Shown here: positions 2,334 through 12,146 of the stretch, one piece after another
Position numbering within the stretch: position 1 is the stretch's first letter
Layout of the letters: the number at the start of each line of letters is the position of its first letter
From: Nitrososphaerales archaeon TH5895
GTDB taxonomy: Archaea > Thermoproteota > Nitrososphaeria > Nitrososphaerales > Nitrososphaeraceae
Reading direction: 5' to 3'
Length of the DNA: 12,215 nucleotides
NCBI GenBank assembly: GCA_014523695.1
Contig: JAATVS010000296.1
Span: 1-12,215, forward strand
Notes under the pieces: model-generated
Seen by the model: only the letters and a program-made list of their open reading frames with translations
What the model was told of the DNA's origin: nothing
The model's database searches: none
Program-made: the position numbers and the translations under genes

Positions 2334-2864
2334 TTAAATTTCCTCATATGTCAAAATCCTTTTGGCTGCATTAACTCTATTAAAAAGATCCTTGAGAAAG
2401 AGATCTGCAAATCGCTCAAAATTATAAATTCCAAATTGACTTTTGTATTCCTGCCTTCGCTTTTGATATTCCTCCTCTAACCATCGAAAATCAGCTTCCT
2501 TTAATCTAATAACATAGTCCCTAGACATGGACTTGGATTCGAAGACATTTATCATAAACAAGCTGGCAAATTTTGTGAAACTATCCGCTCTATATCTTTG
2601 ACTATATTTTTCCTGTAGGCTTTTGTGATTCTCAACAAGCCATTCCTTTACGTCTGATCTGAGAGTCAATGAGGAATACCTACCGGAGAAATCTATCTTC
2701 AGATTGTGCATTTCAACTGTATATTGGCCCCGTTTTATTTCATTCATCATAATTATCAATGCACTAGGAAGGAACATGCCAGGATAATGTTCATCCGTTG
2801 CGACCTGCAGTCTCTGAAGGATCGCAGGCTTCAATCCTATGGTCTCGTATCCTCTCGAAGGCAT
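2334..2864 (-). CDS. Ribbon-helix-helix-like protein with three repeat units, putative regulator
   Basis: Probable DNA-binding protein. Residues 6-46 read as one ribbon-helix-helix unit: a short strand (YETIGLK), a helix (ILQRLQVATDEHY) and a second helix (FLPSALIIMMNEIKRG). Two further stretches follow the same plan. Residues 63-112 contain SSLTLRSDVKEWLVENH followed by SFTKFASLFMINVFES. Residues 116-164 contain YVIRLKEADFRWLEEEY followed by NFERFADLFLKDLFNR. Units two and three share a pattern: strand, x-W-L, a long charged helix, then [SN]F-x-[KR]-F-A-x-x-F. This suggests internal duplication, with unit one more distant. At 176 residues it is longer than a simple RHH repressor (45-110 residues). 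The ATG at 2864 is preceded by a TTAATTA box at leaderless spacing and by an inverted repeat that could be its own operator. The domain call is by eye, and an RHH-like fold with another role remains possible. Confidence 0.7.
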   Translation of the reverse strand: MPSRGYETIGLKPAILQRLQVATDEHYPGMFLPSALIIMMNEIKRGQYTVEMHNLKIDFSGRYSSLTLRSDVKEWLVENHKSLQEKYSQRYRADSFTKFASLFMINVFESKSMSRDYVIRLKEADFRWLEEEYQKRRQEYKSQFGIYNFERFADLFLKDLFNRVNAAKRILTYEEI

Positions 2865-3064: not shown

Positions 3065-4579
3065 TTATTTCCCTGCATTTGGTGCGACAAATCCCTTTAG
3101 ATCTTCCCCCATTAATACATCTTCTTCAGGTGGAACATAGTCGACTACTCCATATCTGCCAGGATATTTCTTTTGGGTTGCCAGAGCTACTACAACAAAG
3201 ATTATAACAGATATTACTGGAGGTATCAATGTATCTAAACCTGCTAATTCAACAGGAATGACGAAGAAAAGCAAAAGCCTCAATGATGATCCGATAATAA
3301 GAGAAGCCAATGTTGCGGGTGTATTCGCCTTCCTCCAGAATAAGCCAAATGTCAGTGGTGCCCAAGCTCCTGCAAACACTATGTCAAATGCAAGGATCAG
3401 ATAAACACCGGGTTGAGGTATCATGTATGCGAGTACGAAAGCAGCTAGCATCATTGGAATAGTAAAAATACGTGTCACCATCAGTAACTTTCTGTCCCCC
3501 ATTCCTGGACGTTTTAGTATCCTTTTCAAGATATTTCTTTGAACAATGTTTCTTGACATGACACTGGAAATGGCGAGCAATCCACCATTTGCAGTTGACA
3601 TCGAGGCACCAAGGACTCCCATGAGTAACGCCAATCCAATAACGAACGGAACGTGGTTTATCGCTAAATCAGGGTAAGCAGTATAGGGATCAACCAGATC
3701 TGGCAGAAAGTATAGGGCAACAATGCCCATCATGCTTGTGGGAACGATGGTCAATATTGTTAATCCTGCTCCCATGAAGGCGCCTCTTCTTGCGGTTTTA
3801 CCGTCCCTAGCTGAGAATACCCTTTCCATGAAATCCAATGCTACAATGTCTCCTAGTGCCAAAGCCATGATCCCTGCCCAATTAATGAGAGCACCATTGC
3901 CCATATCAGTTAGCCCAGATAAATCCAAATACCCAGGCGGAGCGCTGCCTAGAATAGTGTCAAAACTGACGCCAGCAAAGCCTCCTGCGAAGAACAGAAA
4001 TGCTGCCCAAAATGCAGCTATCGCCAAATAAATTTGAAAAATGTCTGTATAAGCCGAGGAGAATAGACCACCTGCATATGTATAAATCAAGACGATTATC
4101 GCTCCAATTAGCATTGCCCATATGAAGTCAATATGTAACACCACCGATAAGATATATCCTGTTGCCGCAAAATTGCCTGCTACCAACACTACGAAGCTTA
4201 CCATCATAAGGATTCCAGAAATACCTTCACTAGCATTTCCAAATCTCCTGAAATAGAAATCGGGCAACGTAAGCATTGACATTTTATTCAATTTCTTCGC
4301 ATAGAATATCGCCGTTAAGATGAGGCATGCCGCTAGGCCGATTGGAATAGCAGCTCCCGACCAGAATCCAAATTGATAAACTAGCGATACATTTCCAAGT
4401 GAAGAATTACCATCGATAGATTGCGCAGCCAGCATAGTCCCTACGAAGAAAAGCGGCAAACTCTTGCCTGCAATCATAAACCGCTTGCTGCTTTTCTTTA
4501 CAAGCTTAGAAGCCAGAGTCCCAACAATAAGGGAAAGCGCTAAGAATGCTATAACCCCAATCGCATATCCGTCTACCAA
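3065..4579 (-). CDS. Sodium:solute symporter family protein
   Basis: Membrane transporter of the SSS family (LeuT fold), which couples Na+ entry to uptake of a small solute. It is 504 residues with about 13 membrane helices, the family's usual size. Family features seen are an N-terminal helix followed by SSKRFMIAGKSLP (30-42), the YTYAGGLFSSAYTDIFQ stretch (166-182), and ALLMGVLGASMSTANGGLL (317-335), where the S-T of the sodium site normally lies. The charged C-terminal tail is cytoplasmic (YVPPEEDVLMGEDLKG). The start is a TTG at 4579, supported by a GGAGGT Shine-Dalgarno six bases upstream (4586-4591) and by the absence of a better ATG. SSS proteins carry urea, proline, sugars, carboxylates and other solutes, and the substrate cannot be assigned here. 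In ammonia-oxidising archaea SSS members are often proposed urea carriers. It is divergent from the chaperonin gene across 362 bases. Confidence 0.92.
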   Translation of the reverse strand: MVDGYAIGVIAFLALSLIVGTLASKLVKKSSKRFMIAGKSLPLFFVGTMLAAQSIDGNSSLGNVSLVYQFGFWSGAAIPIGLAACLILTAIFYAKKLNKMSMLTLPDFYFRRFGNASEGISGILMMVSFVVLVAGNFAATGYILSVVLHIDFIWAMLIGAIIVLIYTYAGGLFSSAYTDIFQIYLAIAAFWAAFLFFAGGFAGVSFDTILGSAPPGYLDLSGLTDMGNGALINWAGIMALALGDIVALDFMERVFSARDGKTARRGAFMGAGLTILTIVPTSMMGIVALYFLPDLVDPYTAYPDLAINHVPFVIGLALLMGVLGASMSTANGGLLAISSVMSRNIVQRNILKRILKRPGMGDRKLLMVTRIFTIPMMLAAFVLAYMIPQPGVYLILAFDIVFAGAWAPLTFGLFWRKANTPATLASLIIGSSLRLLLFFVIPVELAGLDTLIPPVISVIIFVVVALATQKKYPGRYGVVDYVPPEEDVLMGEDLKGFVAPNAGK

Positions 4580-4941: not shown

Positions 4942-6645
4942 ATGGATCCTCGCATGGAACAACTATTCGATGATGGACTTAGGAGAAGTCAAGAGGGCGA
5001 GAGTCGTCGGTATAATCTCTTGGCAGCTACCTTGATTGCAAATCTAGTTAAAAATTCGCTTGGTCCTTGTGGATTGGAAAAAATGTATATCGATATTATG
5101 GGAGAGATCACGGTGACAAAAGATGGTTCGGCTATTTTAAGAAAACTCGATGTTGAGCATCCTGCAGCAAAAATCCTCATAGAGGCAGCCAATTCTGTAG
5201 ACAATGAGGTAGGAGACGGTACTACTTCGGTTGTCATTTTGTCGGGAGAATTACTATCCAAGGCGCAAGAATTGTTGTTGTCTGGAATCGCTCCATCTGT
5301 TATAATTGATGGCTATCTTATGGGTCTAGATATATCGCTTCAGGCACTCAACCGAATTTCAGTATCGTCAACTAGTATACGCAGGGAGGTAATGAGTAAG
5401 TTGGCCGAGACTTGCCTCCGATCTAGGTCTATATCCGGAGTTGTTGCTAGAGAAAATGCTAGTGCAGCTGATCTAGTAGTTGAGGCCGTTTGGAGCATTG
5501 CAGATTTGAGGAGCAAAATGATCGATATAGACGACATCAAAATTGAAGAAAAACTGGGCAATTCTTCTGATACTACCCTAATAAGAGGCACAGTGATTGA
5601 CAAGACCTTTAACGCGTCTTCCAGGGTCAAACAGATTGATAATGCCAAGATACTTCTAACTAATGAAGAACTTGATAGGAGTAGGACCAGGACTAATTCT
5701 GAATTGAATATATCATCCTATGATCAGCTAGAGAATTACCACAGATCTGAATATGAACTACTCGAAGTTAAGGTACAGAATATTATAGATTCTGGAGCAA
5801 ATATCGTGATTTCTCAGAAGGGAATAAGCAAGATTGTCCAACAGCACTTATCAAGAGCAGATATTATCTCCATTCATAGAGTTAAAGAAAATGATATGCT
5901 GTGGTTGGAAAAATCAACAACTACAATGATTATCAAAGATTTGAATGGCCCGATACCATCTAATACTTTGGGTTATGCGGGAAAAGTATATGAAAAATTG
6001 GTTGGTGAAGACAAGATGGTCTTTATCGATTGCTGTAGGGATCCAAAATCAGTAACTCTTCTGTTGAGGGCAAACTCGAAAAGGGTACTCGATGAGTACC
6101 ATCGGTCTGCCTTGGATGGGTTTGCTGTTCTAAGAGACTATATTCTATCACCTCGAATTGTTGGAGGTGCTGGAGCTACTGAAGTGAGGGTAGCATCTAT
6201 CGTTAGAGATGAATCTAGACAAATTAAAGGCCGCGTTCAGCTCGTGCTTCGGAAATTCGCTGATGCATTGGAGGAAATACCAATTACACTCGCTAGAAAT
6301 GCTGGAATGGATACGGTTAACACGATAATCCAATTGAGGTCTAAACACTTGCCTGCTCATAGCAAGGTTAAGTGGTATGGAATCGATTCAAAAAGTAGAA
6401 AGGTAGACAATATCTTCTCCTCAGTGATCGAGCCATCGATAGTTAAAGAACAAATTCTCAAAACAGCTGTGGAGGTAACCTGCATGTTGCTACGCGTGGA
6501 TGATGTCTTGATGGCCAAACCCAAAATGGAGACTCATAGCCACGCAGACGGAGTAGAGCATTCACATCCCGGAGGAGACAAGAAGCATGACCATTATTTC
6601 GATCGACTCGGAAAACAACAAAGGCCTATGCATCACTATTATTGA
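4942..6645 (+). CDS. Thermosome (group II chaperonin) subunit, divergent, with histidine-rich tail
   Basis: ATP-dependent protein-folding chaperonin subunit that should assemble into a two-ring complex in the cytoplasm. It is 567 residues, slightly longer than the usual 540-550. The domains are in order: equatorial (1-140), intermediate, apical with helical protrusion (about 205-375), then intermediate and equatorial again. Nucleotide-site motifs are SLGPCG (39-44), TKDGSAIL (59-66) and GDGTTS (91-96). The aspartate needed for hydrolysis matches D392 in RSALDGFAVL, and GGAGATE (408-414) is present. Divergences from typical thermosomes are Cys at 43 where Arg or Lys is common in LGPRG, Ala at 64 in place of the usual Thr of DGAT, and His at 388 for the Glu of the ER motif before the catalytic Asp. 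Residues 532-565 carry eight histidines. The ATG at 4942 is fixed by GGAGG at 4933. It is probably a paralogue beside standard thermosome subunits encoded elsewhere; that is inferred. Confidence 0.93.
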   Translation: MDPRMEQLFDDGLRRSQEGESRRYNLLAATLIANLVKNSLGPCGLEKMYIDIMGEITVTKDGSAILRKLDVEHPAAKILIEAANSVDNEVGDGTTSVVILSGELLSKAQELLLSGIAPSVIIDGYLMGLDISLQALNRISVSSTSIRREVMSKLAETCLRSRSISGVVARENASAADLVVEAVWSIADLRSKMIDIDDIKIEEKLGNSSDTTLIRGTVIDKTFNASSRVKQIDNAKILLTNEELDRSRTRTNSELNISSYDQLENYHRSEYELLEVKVQNIIDSGANIVISQKGISKIVQQHLSRADIISIHRVKENDMLWLEKSTTTMIIKDLNGPIPSNTLGYAGKVYEKLVGEDKMVFIDCCRDPKSVTLLLRANSKRVLDEYHRSALDGFAVLRDYILSPRIVGGAGATEVRVASIVRDESRQIKGRVQLVLRKFADALEEIPITLARNAGMDTVNTIIQLRSKHLPAHSKVKWYGIDSKSRKVDNIFSSVIEPSIVKEQILKTAVEVTCMLLRVDDVLMAKPKMETHSHADGVEHSHPGGDKKHDHYFDRLGKQQRPMHHYY

Positions 6646-7075: not shown

Positions 7076-7330
7076 TTAAAGAGGTTTCATTATATCTATT
7101 AGTCTAGCATTAGTTATAATGCCATCTTGTTCTCTAATAGTTAGATCTACCACATACTGAAGGTTATTTAACATAAAAGTGGTCTGCGCATCCCATTCCT
7201 CCCTTTTTTGTTCATTTGGAAGAGAGAATAAAGATCTAAGCTTTAACTCTGTTATATCTTTTCCATACAATGTCGCAATTGCTCCTGCCGCTCGCGCTTC
7301 GACATCACTTTCATTTCTAACCGCATTCAT
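7076..7330 (-). CDS. Small hypothetical protein, 84 residues
   Basis: I do not recognise this protein. It is small, soluble and without a signal peptide. The N-terminal half is alanine-rich and probably helical (VEARAAGAIATLYGK, about residues 9-23). The C-terminal half reads as alternating strands (EWDAQTTFMLNN, LQYVVDLTIREQDG, TNARLIDIMKPL), an amphipathic beta pattern like a small sheet domain. The ATG at 7330 is chosen, and a GTG one codon upstream (7333) is equally possible. A TTTTTATA box (7355-7362 on the minus strand) lies about 28 bases before it, at leaderless spacing, which argues that this is a real gene. No neighbour lies on the same strand nearby, so it is probably transcribed alone. 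The function is unknown. Confidence 0.65.
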   Translation of the reverse strand: MNAVRNESDVEARAAGAIATLYGKDITELKLRSLFSLPNEQKREEWDAQTTFMLNNLQYVVDLTIREQDGIITNARLIDIMKPL

Positions 7331-7354
7331 CACATATCATATAAGGAGAGTAAC

Positions 7355-7753: not shown

Positions 7754-8878
7754 ATGGGAATGGAATTCTATGGGGATTCGTACAAAGGTAATGATGAGCC
7801 GATTTTTGTTGGAATACCAACTTTTCTGAAGTTACCTTGGCTTAGATCCCGTCAGGAATTAGAAAAAATAAAGCCCGATGTAGCTATAATTGGGGAGCCC
7901 TTTGATTTTGGTACGACGATACGACCTGGCGCAAGATACGGACCGCGTGCAATCCGTGCAGCCTCGACCGTGCCATCTCCTCCATATGAACATTTTAACA
8001 TTGAAACTGGAGTAGATCCTTTTGGCGTATTCAGAACTGTAGACTATGGTGATGTTGCAGTATCTCCGGGAGACGTCATTGAATCGCACAGAAGAATGAC
8101 AAACAAGGTCAAGGAGGTTCTCGATATCGATGGGATTCCTGTAATGTTAGGAGGAGATCACTCAATTACTTTCGCTAACGTGAGAGCATTTGCGAAGAAA
8201 TACAAAAACATTGGAATGATCCATATCGATACTCATGCTGATTGCGCTCCGCAAGGGCTTTGTGGCTTCAAATATGATCATGGGGCACACATTAGAAGAA
8301 TTATGGAGCTAGGATGTCTAAAGGGCAAAAATTATACCCTGATTGGTCCAAGGGGATACTGGCCCGGACCCGATCTCTATAAGTGGATGGCAGATCAGGA
8401 TTTCCAGTGGTTCACAATGTTAGATGTCGAAGAAATGGGAATAGATACGATTGCAAAGGAAGCGGCCGATAGGGCAAATGATGATGTTGATGCAGTTTAT
8501 ATCAGCTGGGACATTGATACATTTGATCCCGCCTATGCCCCGGGCACTGGGGAGCCCGAACCCAATGGCCTCACTTCTAGAGAGGGTATGAGATTAATGC
8601 GACTATTGTCCACATCTTTCGATCCAGACAAGTTTGCATTCGATTTAGTAGAAGTAGCACCCAACTATGATGTAAGCGATGTTAACTCCTACAATGGGGG
8701 AATCACTTCAGGCTTGGCAAATCGACTAATTGTTGAACTCTTAGCAGGGCTTTCCCTCACTAAGAAAGGGGAAAAGGAAGGAAATCCTGTACGGCCAAAG
8801 TTCTATCGTGGGAAGGGACATACTTATGATTTTGGCAACGGTCCTAAAGCAGTGCCCCCAAAAAGAGACAGTCGATGA
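7754..8878 (+). CDS. Ureohydrolase (agmatinase/guanidinase-like), dinuclear metal enzyme
   Basis: Hydrolase of the arginase/agmatinase superfamily, which releases urea from a guanidino compound using two metal ions. All six metal ligands are visible: H136 in GGDHS (133-137), D159, H161 and D163 in HIDTHAD, and D253 and D255 in SWDIDTFDP. The superfamily motif EPFDFGTTIRPGARYGPRAI is at 48-67 and YAPGTGEPEPNGLTSRE at 261-277. At 374 residues it exceeds common agmatinases (about 290-320), with extra sequence at the N-terminus (about 40 residues before the fold) and a polar tail after about 335. An unusual GPRGYWPGP stretch (198-206) lies in a region that varies with substrate. The substrate could be agmatine, guanidinobutyrate, another guanidino acid or free guanidine; I cannot decide, but length and context make guanidine worth testing. 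A second in-frame ATG at 7760 is possible. Its stop overlaps the next start (ATGA), so the two are translationally coupled. Confidence 0.9.
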   Translation: MGMEFYGDSYKGNDEPIFVGIPTFLKLPWLRSRQELEKIKPDVAIIGEPFDFGTTIRPGARYGPRAIRAASTVPSPPYEHFNIETGVDPFGVFRTVDYGDVAVSPGDVIESHRRMTNKVKEVLDIDGIPVMLGGDHSITFANVRAFAKKYKNIGMIHIDTHADCAPQGLCGFKYDHGAHIRRIMELGCLKGKNYTLIGPRGYWPGPDLYKWMADQDFQWFTMLDVEEMGIDTIAKEAADRANDDVDAVYISWDIDTFDPAYAPGTGEPEPNGLTSREGMRLMRLLSTSFDPDKFAFDLVEVAPNYDVSDVNSYNGGITSGLANRLIVELLAGLSLTKKGEKEGNPVRPKFYRGKGHTYDFGNGPKAVPPKRDSR

Positions 8879-9258
8879 TAGATATTAGAGTCTTAGTGCG
8901 TGGAGAAATCGATACTCCTCCATTCGTAAGGGTATTCCAATATCCGGATAAGGAAGAGGAATCAATATTTTTTAATTCCGTAGCTGCAATCAAGAAAAAG
9001 ATTGGGAAGAGTCTAAAGATCAATGCCAATGAAACGCTTGCCATTTTTTGTGCATACGTGATTGAACAGATGAGAGATCGCAAATCTCAAGACGAGATCG
9101 AAAATGCTGCACATGGTATCGTTTCTAGTGACCAAGTGTTGATCGGTGTTCCAGAAACTTTGAGAGAAATGAGCTTTGACGTAATTGTCGACGATTTTCC
9201 GGAACAGCGGATAAAATTGTTTGAACCTATGAAGATAAGCAATTACATGATGATTTGA
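8875..9258 (+). CDS. Urease gamma-subunit (UreA)-like protein coupled to the ureohydrolase
   Basis: Small protein of 127 residues. Residues 49-119 align by eye with the body of urease gamma subunits: KINANETLAIFCAYVIEQ and RDRKS match KLNYPESVALISAFIMEG and RDGKS of bacterial UreA, SSDQVLIGVPE matches TREQVMEGVPE, and the end FPEQRIKLFEPM matches FPDGSKLVTVHNPI. The N-terminal 48 residues do not match UreA's opening helix (LTPREKDKLL). They look strand-rich instead (IDIRVLVRGEIDTPPFVRVF). UreA is a structural subunit that packs against the catalytic subunit and has no active site, so a partner or assembly role is the natural guess. No ureB, ureC or urease accessory gene is in the window. The start overlaps the ureohydrolase stop by four bases, implying coupled translation and probably complex formation. 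Family resemblance is seen; function is inferred. Confidence 0.75.
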   Translation: MIDIRVLVRGEIDTPPFVRVFQYPDKEEESIFFNSVAAIKKKIGKSLKINANETLAIFCAYVIEQMRDRKSQDEIENAAHGIVSSDQVLIGVPETLREMSFDVIVDDFPEQRIKLFEPMKISNYMMI

Positions 9259-10748: not shown

Positions 10749-12146
10749 TCACTTACCTGTTATTTTATTAAGTATTGATAACCCTATATTTGCAGCGAAG
10801 TGCTCTTTAGCGTTATTCCCAAAGGTAACGTTTGGCTCTCCCTTTCTCGTAACAAAACCTATGACAGTTGCTCTAAAGTTATGCTTTCGCAATTCATCAA
10901 GTACTGTATTTGTAATGTCTTTGGTTGCGACAATGGTATGACATCCGTTCATAGCAGCCGTTGGGTTTGCTACGAGTGCTTCACTTGAAGCTAGTCTTGC
11001 AATTTCCTCAAACATCATTGGAATGTCATTGACCACAAGATGACAATTGCTTACCCGGGCAAGCTTCCATAAACCAAGAATGCCGTCACTACCTAAAGGA
11101 TGAACCGCTATTATGTTATCATTCTTCTGCAGTGATTCCCCAAAGTTAGGACAATATTTTGAGACTATTTTTCCCAGTGAAAAATGCGGTTCACTCAGGT
11201 TCTTCATGCATTCATCTTTTGCAGATACAAGATCTTGTTTGTTGACGCCTTTGGTTTCCAATTTAGAAATAATCTTCTCATCTATTTGAGCTAGTACAAA
11301 TAGACTTAATGCCATCAATGACCCGAGCGGATTAGTGATAATAATTTGCATAGTTTCCTCAATCTGGTCATAATTTGTAGGTAGTTCTTTGAAGGTGTTA
11401 GCAATCCCCGTAGCACCAAAGAAGAGCTTTCCCATCTTAAGTGAGCTGTAATCATCCATCTTGAGATTATATCTGGATGTGAATGCATCAAGATTTTTCC
11501 TAATCGTATCAAGTGTATATTCGTGAGGAGAATCATAGATGGGGTAGAGGTTAAATCCTGATGTGCACCCAATCAGATTCAAATGGTCGATGCATCGCGT
11601 CATAGGGATGTCTGTATGGAGCTCAGAGTCAGGCTCCAATGTAGGATCAATCACATGAGCCGTAGCATTATCAGCAGCGGTAAAACCTACCTTATCTCCT
11701 CTATGCAAACCAATATAGTCAAGTAAGGCGAATTGTGCATCCCTATGCTCTGTAACAGCAAATGTAGTTTTACTAATGGCAACTTTACACCGGAAATTTC
11801 TGAAGAAATTGTTCAGAATCCCCGTGAATAAGGAAGGATCGTTCTCTATCTCCTTATGAACTCGGAACATAGCAAGGGCGTGTTTAAGTTCAACCTCGTT
11901 TTCAACTGCAGGATCGCGTATGGAAAAGACCCTTCTAGTAAGTTCAGGTGCTTTCCCATTTGCGTAATGGAATGCGTCATACCAATTTGTATCCAACTTT
12001 ATAGAGCTGCGTTTCATTTCCTTTACCGCGTGATTAAGTGTCCAATTATCAATTTCATTAGAACCGGTAGCAACCCACCTCAAAGGGTCGAACCCCAATT
12101 TTCGATATTCTTCTATCTTTTGCCAAAATTCTTCAGTCAACCGCAC
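10749..12146 (-). CDS. PurM/SelD-like ATP-dependent enzyme (AIR synthase-related), substrate unknown
   Basis: Protein of 465 residues in the PurM/SelD/HypE superfamily, whose members make acyl-phosphate or selenophosphate-type products with ATP. The N-terminal 110 residues are unassigned and helical. Residues about 115-275 resemble the PurM N-terminal domain, ending in MQIIITNPLGS (266-276), comparable to the LILTKPLGTG motif of SelD. The C-terminal domain has IPMMFEEIARLA (375-386), NPTAAMNGCHTIVA (394-407, where SelD has DPQTSGGLL) and RATVIGFVTRKGEPNV (425-440, SelD VIGEVT). The catalytic Cys/Sec-Gly-Cys-Lys segment of true SelD is not seen, so selenophosphate synthesis is doubtful. The start is a GTG at 12146, directly after an in-frame TGA, with AGGAGGA (12150-12156) as Shine-Dalgarno. 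An out-of-frame ATG lies in between. A TATA-like TTTAAATA (12191-12198) lies upstream. It is convergent with the TerC gene. Confidence 0.7.
   Translation of the reverse strand: MRLTEEFWQKIEEYRKLGFDPLRWVATGSNEIDNWTLNHAVKEMKRSSIKLDTNWYDAFHYANGKAPELTRRVFSIRDPAVENEVELKHALAMFRVHKEIENDPSLFTGILNNFFRNFRCKVAISKTTFAVTEHRDAQFALLDYIGLHRGDKVGFTAADNATAHVIDPTLEPDSELHTDIPMTRCIDHLNLIGCTSGFNLYPIYDSPHEYTLDTIRKNLDAFTSRYNLKMDDYSSLKMGKLFFGATGIANTFKELPTNYDQIEETMQIIITNPLGSLMALSLFVLAQIDEKIISKLETKGVNKQDLVSAKDECMKNLSEPHFSLGKIVSKYCPNFGESLQKNDNIIAVHPLGSDGILGLWKLARVSNCHLVVNDIPMMFEEIARLASSEALVANPTAAMNGCHTIVATKDITNTVLDELRKHNFRATVIGFVTRKGEPNVTFGNNAKEHFAANIGLSILNKITGK

Follow-up and report, generated by a model that had tools for sequence, protein, structure and literature searches.

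A candidate nitrogen-scavenging gene cluster of ammonia-oxidizing archaea that combines an arginase-family hydrolase, a urease gamma-like protein and a His-tailed chaperonin

The window, which is the whole stretch of 12,215 nucleotides that was analysed, carries the gene of an arginase-family ureohydrolase (HYD) that overlaps by ATGA the gene of a small protein resembling urease subunit gamma (UreA), just as the original prediction had read it. We propose that this pair belongs to a nitrogen-scavenging cluster of ammonia-oxidizing archaea (AOA), in which a metal-dependent and probably nickel-dependent ureohydrolase feeds urease and is served by a chaperonin of its own and by a partner derived from UreA; we consider the chances of this proposal to be evenly balanced. 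An SSS-family symporter would import a guanidino compound, HYD, as a putative binuclear metal ureohydrolase with nickel as its probable metal, would free urea, and urease would convert this urea to ammonia for ammonia oxidation. A dedicated chaperonin would fold HYD and load its metal, its His-rich tails forming a store of metal inside the folding chamber. The UreA-like protein may be a duplicated urease gamma subunit that was co-opted as a co-translated, non-catalytic partner contacting HYD; it would aid HYD assembly or maturation and be dispensable at times. For AOA, which rank with the most abundant nitrifiers, a conserved route of transporter, hydrolase and urease, filed as agmatinase, would point to an unrecognised source of guanidino nitrogen.

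The proposal builds on observed features: the protein families, the order and overlap of the genes, their conservation and co-occurrence, the active-site motif and the conserved tail. We count in its favor the adjacency of the pair, the co-occurrence of HYD with UreC and with the chaperonin tail, the likely nickel transporters in 20 of 30 loci, a single gene string in genome G038 and the match to the motifs of nickel guanidinases. We count against it the low identity among UreA-like proteins, the six loci in which none was found, the haloarchaeal loci, genome G098 and the missing urease match in the window's own genome. The features concerned are the following.

2334..2864, minus strand: p173, a conserved protein of about 173 residues, in 44 of the 81 sequences clustered, with no Pfam family over the cut-off
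3065..4579, minus strand: SSS-family solute symporter (Pfam SSF), likely importer of the HYD substrate given its co-occurrence with HYD
4942..6645, plus strand: group II chaperonin of divergent sequence, 567 aa when read from the ATG at which its length agrees with that of its relatives (open frame from 4846), Pfam Cpn60_TCP1 469.7 bits
6508..6642, plus strand: His-rich tail at the chaperonin C-terminus, HxH...HxH...HxH...HHYY, from His counts and aligned columns
7076..7333, minus strand: s84, a conserved protein of about 84 residues, in 56 of the 81 sequences clustered, with no Pfam match
7754..8878, plus strand: HYD, arginase-family ureohydrolase, 374 aa, from Pfam and from an alignment with 7esr (GdmH) and 9fek (N. 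inopinata); orthologues 79-99% identical
8875..9258, plus strand: UreA-like paralogue, 127 aa, from Pfam, AlphaFold2 with Foldseek, and a tree; its start overlaps the HYD stop

A scan of named genomes gave 109 relatives, and 80 loci were kept: 76 of AOA type (at least 79% identical) and four haloarchaeal (54-55%). Five of the 76 were excluded from the adjacency count, having HYD at a contig end or, in L137, a chimeric sequence. The pair is conserved in related genomes: an iterated profile run on frames of at least 60 aa found the UreA-like gene directly 3' of HYD in 64 of the 71 testable AOA loci (L118 and L077 on partial matches), and the adjacency is therefore not due to chance. In 47 of these 64 loci the nearest start codon of the UreA-like gene shares 1-4 bases with the HYD stop; where TTG and ATG are consecutive, the overlap holds for both choices. 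The profile, which a strongly diverged copy could escape, did not find the gene in six loci: L085 (named Nitrosocosmicus), L086 and L088 (Nitrososphaeraceae), L121 (Thaumarchaeota casp-thauma3), L126 (Nitrosopelagicus) and L131 (Nitrosopumilus). At least three of them (L085, L086 and L088) keep the chaperonin. The seventh “no” of the automatic count, L136, has a frameshifted HYD and yet possesses the UreA-like gene. With the same profile the gene was found in none of the four haloarchaeal loci.

Two further loci deserve mention. The 700-aa HYD frame of L137 was rejected, as its hydrolase sequence ends near residue 236 and is followed by unrelated sequence, which we read as a chimeric contig. 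In G004 the pair occurs twice in one assembly (C149 and C105), perhaps from two strains.

The pair had originally been seen as a two-gene module with no other urease gene present. This holds for the 12,215-base contig and for its own genome, where searches for UreC, UreD and a second UreA found none; it does not hold for the relatives, and the idea of a module without urease had to be abandoned. We sampled 151 genomes of the order with a completeness of at least 85% (taken to be the same 151 in each draw, since the listed handles agree; genomes without a match are not all listed) and counted HYD in 38, UreC in 58, the His tail in 34 and the SSS symporter in 35. HYD and UreC were together in 36 genomes (Fisher p = 3e-17, a value that treats related genomes as independent and ignores shared ancestry), and the only HYD-positive genomes without a UreC match were G000 and G004. 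UreC was also present in 18 of the 30 loci that reach at least 6 kb either side of HYD. In G038 (L186) one strand carries, in a single string, HYD, the UreA-like gene, a NicO-like gene, UreA, UreB, UreC, UreE, UreF, UreG and UreD, of which the UreA-type genes, UreC and UreD are supported by searches and the other urease genes are named by resemblance. The urease names of neighbor clusters other than those assigned by Pfam likewise come from sequence resemblance and gene order.

The missing urease of the window's own genome is probably an assembly gap, since its genus-mates G003 and G001 have UreC pieces at contig ends. In G003, UreC is cut at the contig end and is followed by a chaperonin and genes reading as UreE, UreF, UreG and UreD, the last backed by a search; in G001 a UreC piece is present. 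We rejected the idea that the genus had lost urease and kept the pair, which rested on PF00449 (none of five genus genomes), a profile that covers the UreC N-terminus only.

Both proteins belong to the families first named for them. HYD scored 266.5 bits with Pfam Arginase (cut-off 22) and the small protein 39.4 bits with Pfam Urease_gamma (cut-off 23.9). Placement of the latter in the UreA family by profile stood in part: the Pfam cut-off was passed, and the NCBIfam UreA cut-offs were missed by far (40.1 versus 123 and 36.8 versus 82.3), so that we regard it as a relative of UreA and not as a standard UreA. Its AlphaFold2 model (36 alignment rows) had a pLDDT of 91.9 and a pTM of 0.86. Each of the model's top 18 Foldseek matches in the PDB was a urease gamma subunit or a urease chain that includes gamma, and 12 of the 18 had E ≤ 0.001 (4fur_B, TM 0.84 by target, E 2e-6); the predicted fold is that of UreA. 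In a tree rooted on one UreA, 37 HYD-linked proteins (36 plus the G038 copy) formed one clade apart from 23 AOA UreA with a support of 0.993. The small protein therefore does not group with the UreA of UreABC operons, and the UreA-like proteins are paralogues of AOA UreA. They resemble UreA in predicted fold and in the core motifs LKxNxxE and GVPE, which are retained in most of 36 aligned members. Unlike UreA, they form a separate clade, carry about 20 extra residues at the N-terminus (seen in the aligned AOA members, absent from the G038 copy) and, in the window, adjoin neither UreB nor UreC. A urease subunit has here been duplicated and then retained beside an unrelated hydrolase.

The UreA-like protein evolves fast. 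Its median pairwise identity between loci was 0.37, the second lowest among 12 families compared, with 0.84 for HYD (0.83 on the pairs shared with the UreA-like gene), about 0.80-0.81 for UreC, 0.73-0.75 for UreA (0.74 in a cleaner set), 0.64 for SSS and 0.50 for the chaperonin, each family being taken on its own set of pairs and the UreA set, gathered mechanically, possibly holding a few wrong members. This low identity and the six of 71 loci in which the gene was not found speak against a catalytic subunit that is always required and against a place in urease like that of UreA. As the gene overlaps HYD, yet diverges rapidly and is sometimes missing, we hold a partner in HYD assembly to be its most likely role.

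It could be speculated, in line with the first of the roles originally suggested, that the UreA-like protein is instead a tether that binds both HYD and urease and channels urea between them. The presence of UreC in nearly all HYD-positive genomes, the gene string of G038 and the retained core motifs fit this idea; however, this is unlikely because an identity of 0.37, against about 0.80 for UreC and 0.75 for UreA, is unlike that of a protein bound to a conserved UreC surface, and because of the loci in which the gene was not found. A structure prediction of HYD fused to the UreA-like protein (pLDDT 71.8, pTM 0.61, HYD part unreliable) said nothing for or against contact. Another possibility, that the protein regulates or inhibits HYD, for example as a sensor of urea or nickel, would suit the gene overlap, rapid divergence and occasional loss, although we think it improbable as the alignment of UreA-like members showed no recognisable ligand site and UreA has, to our knowledge, no sensing role.

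With regard to the hydrolase of the proposed scavenging cluster, HYD is, judging from alignment, probably a metal-dependent ureohydrolase using nickel. Its metal-ligand motifs GGDH, DTHAD and DID line up with the nickel guanidinases 7esr and 9fek, and the binuclear metal ligands of the guanidinase GdmH are present. A point against nickel is that manganese is often the metal in arginase-family enzymes with the same ligands. Guanidinases are recognised by Thr, His and Trp at three positions, according to the available part of PMC11410670. In HYD the Thr and His match, and the position of GdmH-Trp305 is occupied by Glu in GTGEPEP (rule positions were assigned by counting along 7esr and 9fek, with chain numbers 2 ahead). 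The identification of HYD as a guanidinase was therefore rejected on the Trp rule.

A database search returned 4070 homologues of HYD at E ≤ 1e-20, and the best 120 of the 4070 were used for a motif survey. Among these best 120, the specificity residue was Glu in 77 of the 80 homologues that were at least 50% identical and had a readable motif (the exceptions being two Val and one Thr, with five more entries lacking a readable motif), and it was Thr in all 35 homologues at 43-46% identity. This split puts HYD in an archaeal clade, of AOA and haloarchaea, with a signature of its own. We know of no characterised member of this clade. The HYD matches in 61 related genomes also fell cleanly into orthologues at least 81% identical and others at most 38% identical.

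The annotated function would make HYD an ordinary agmatinase, acting in polyamine synthesis or deoxyhypusine formation. This is what the database names of its homologues say; agmatinase/speB copies in AOA appear in the accessible portions of PMC11131427 and PMC10753782, neighbor clusters 16 (deoxyhypusine synthase by Pfam) or 20 occur in 11 of the 30 long loci, and a Haloferax gene described as agmatinase-like was proposed to act with aIF5A in the available text of PMC5178350. On the other hand, HYD falls under the cut-off of the agmatinase equivalog TIGR01230 (154.5 versus 174.3), its specificity position is Glu and not Thr, its presence follows urease, and genomes without HYD retain other arginase-family paralogues (60 of the 61 genomes have some match). 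An ordinary agmatinase thus seems to us a poor prospect. In the excerpted text of PMC11131427, an SSS transporter clusters with an “agmatinase (SpeB)” in one Nitrososphaera clade. That protein is probably HYD, in which case the adjacency of SSS and HYD was already known.

Several known systems resemble parts of the proposed cluster. The nickel-dependent GdmH (Synechocystis 7esr/7oi1; N. inopinata 9fek) is, like HYD, an arginase-family enzyme with these metal-ligand motifs and with Thr and His at two of the rule positions, and passes urea to urease (PMC11410670, in the part available), as proposed for HYD. GdmH differs in having Trp where HYD has Glu, and neither a UreA-like partner nor a His-tailed chaperonin is mentioned for it in that part. 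In the heteromeric nickel metformin hydrolase MefH/MetCaCb, too, genes for a partner and for nickel accompany that of a ureohydrolase (accessible text of PMC11399263); the partner, however, is a second ureohydrolase-family protein, whereas the neighbor of HYD is a UreA paralogue. Like our chaperonin, Helicobacter pylori HspA belongs to a chaperonin system, has a His-rich C-terminus and comes from an organism with urease (PMC7840056, as far as its available text goes). HspA is a GroES co-chaperonin with a His/Cys-rich nickel-binding tail, whereas the archaeal tail belongs to a group II chaperonin and goes with HYD rather than with urease. The claim that no system of this form had been described agrees with our literature search, which found no description of the HYD/UreA-like pair in the portions of papers it reached; neither the UreA-like neighbor nor the His-tailed chaperonin is mentioned in the available parts of PMC11410670, PMC11131427, PMC10753782, PMC8573960, PMC5178350, PMC11399263, PMC6821194 and PMC7840056.

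Nickel loading of the hydrolase had been among the roles first suggested for the small protein. The theme fits; its strongest carrier is the His-tailed chaperonin, which stands 1.1 kb upstream of HYD, and not the UreA-like protein. The Cpn60_TCP1 domain of the window's chaperonin spans the whole profile (positions 1-490 of 490), which makes it a group II chaperonin. In all 44 chaperonin copies longer than 540 aa the last 45 residues hold 8-10 His, and 16 aligned rows chosen from the 44 have seven invariant His columns in the tail. These 44 form one clade (support 1.0) that includes none of 36 comparison chaperonins, which were 30 canonical thermosomes, retrieved for some of the matches, and six chaperonins adjoining UreC. 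The 36 have 0-1 His in their last 45 residues. Thus, by its grouping and by its tail, the window's chaperonin is not a canonical thermosome. Searched against a database, the tail matched 842 proteins, and Cpn60_TCP1 was present in 120 of 120 among the matches listed.

In the order sample all 34 carriers of the His tail were HYD-positive, and the tail was found in none of the 22 genomes with UreC and without HYD (p = 3e-12 within urease-positive genomes, again with related genomes treated as independent). Four HYD-positive genomes gave no tail match. The chaperonin of G034 is 81% identical to a member of the His clade and has its C-terminus cut by the contig end, and in G011 HYD lies at a contig end. 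G098 is an unexplained exception, with two chaperonins lacking His tails (0-1 His) and with HYD and the UreA-like gene present. G038 has four chaperonins without His tails (0-1 His) and carries a His-rich tail on HYD instead. This exchange of the tail from chaperonin to HYD is seen in one genome; a search for further His-tailed HYDs in the family of G038 covered two genomes, one with HYD. Among HYD-type proteins at large, a His-rich tail is strong in four further clusters (P0128, P0129, P0130 and P0132) and weaker in P0136 and P0137.

In group II chaperonins the C-termini point into the chamber. We tentatively suggest a metal-loading group II chaperonin dedicated to one client: its tails may make the chamber a nickel depot, and the ureohydrolase may fold, meet its UreA-derived partner and receive its metals inside or at the chaperonin, with the tail moved to the enzyme where that chaperonin is missing, as in the one genome. 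If true, folding and metal insertion would be coupled in a new way, by a His-rich chaperonin tail that goes with just one metalloenzyme.

A second divergent chaperonin, without a His tail, was observed beside UreC in seven of 12 genomes searched (G003, G005, G015, G016, G027, G032 and G037) and was not seen in G044, G089, G110, G156 and G159; examples are L142:1415-2998 (G003) and L177-L181.

The remaining genes were mapped by clustering the ORFs of the 80 loci and the window and running Pfam on one representative of each neighbor cluster searched. The recurring neighbors of HYD were the SSS symporter, s84, a TPR protein, the chaperonin, p173, a likely nickel transporter and, often, urease. 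Among the 30 loci that extend 6 kb or more to either side, SSS was counted 29 times, s84 29, p173 26, TPR 24, the chaperonin 23 and a transporter of NicO/NiCoT type 20. The NiCoT representative exceeds the NicO cut-off, and the commoner 252-aa type scores under it (21.4 versus 27.7 bits, E 0.00018). These nearby transporters could serve urease only, which is a counter-point to a nickel-dependent HYD. The SSS gene was present in 34 of the 38 HYD-positive genomes (missing from G098, G136, G138 and G142) versus one of the 113 HYD-negative ones (G148), and it stands two genes from HYD in three of the four haloarchaeal loci. In three of these four loci (L138-L141), which are without a UreA-like gene, a PhoU/AbrB-type gene lies between the HYD homologue and SSS.

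No guanidine riboswitch or other RNA matched Rfam at gathering score in the window. A 465-aa protein at 10749-12146 on the minus strand has no Pfam family over the cut-off and occurs in five clustered sequences only, and s84 is conserved across AOA near HYD or urease.
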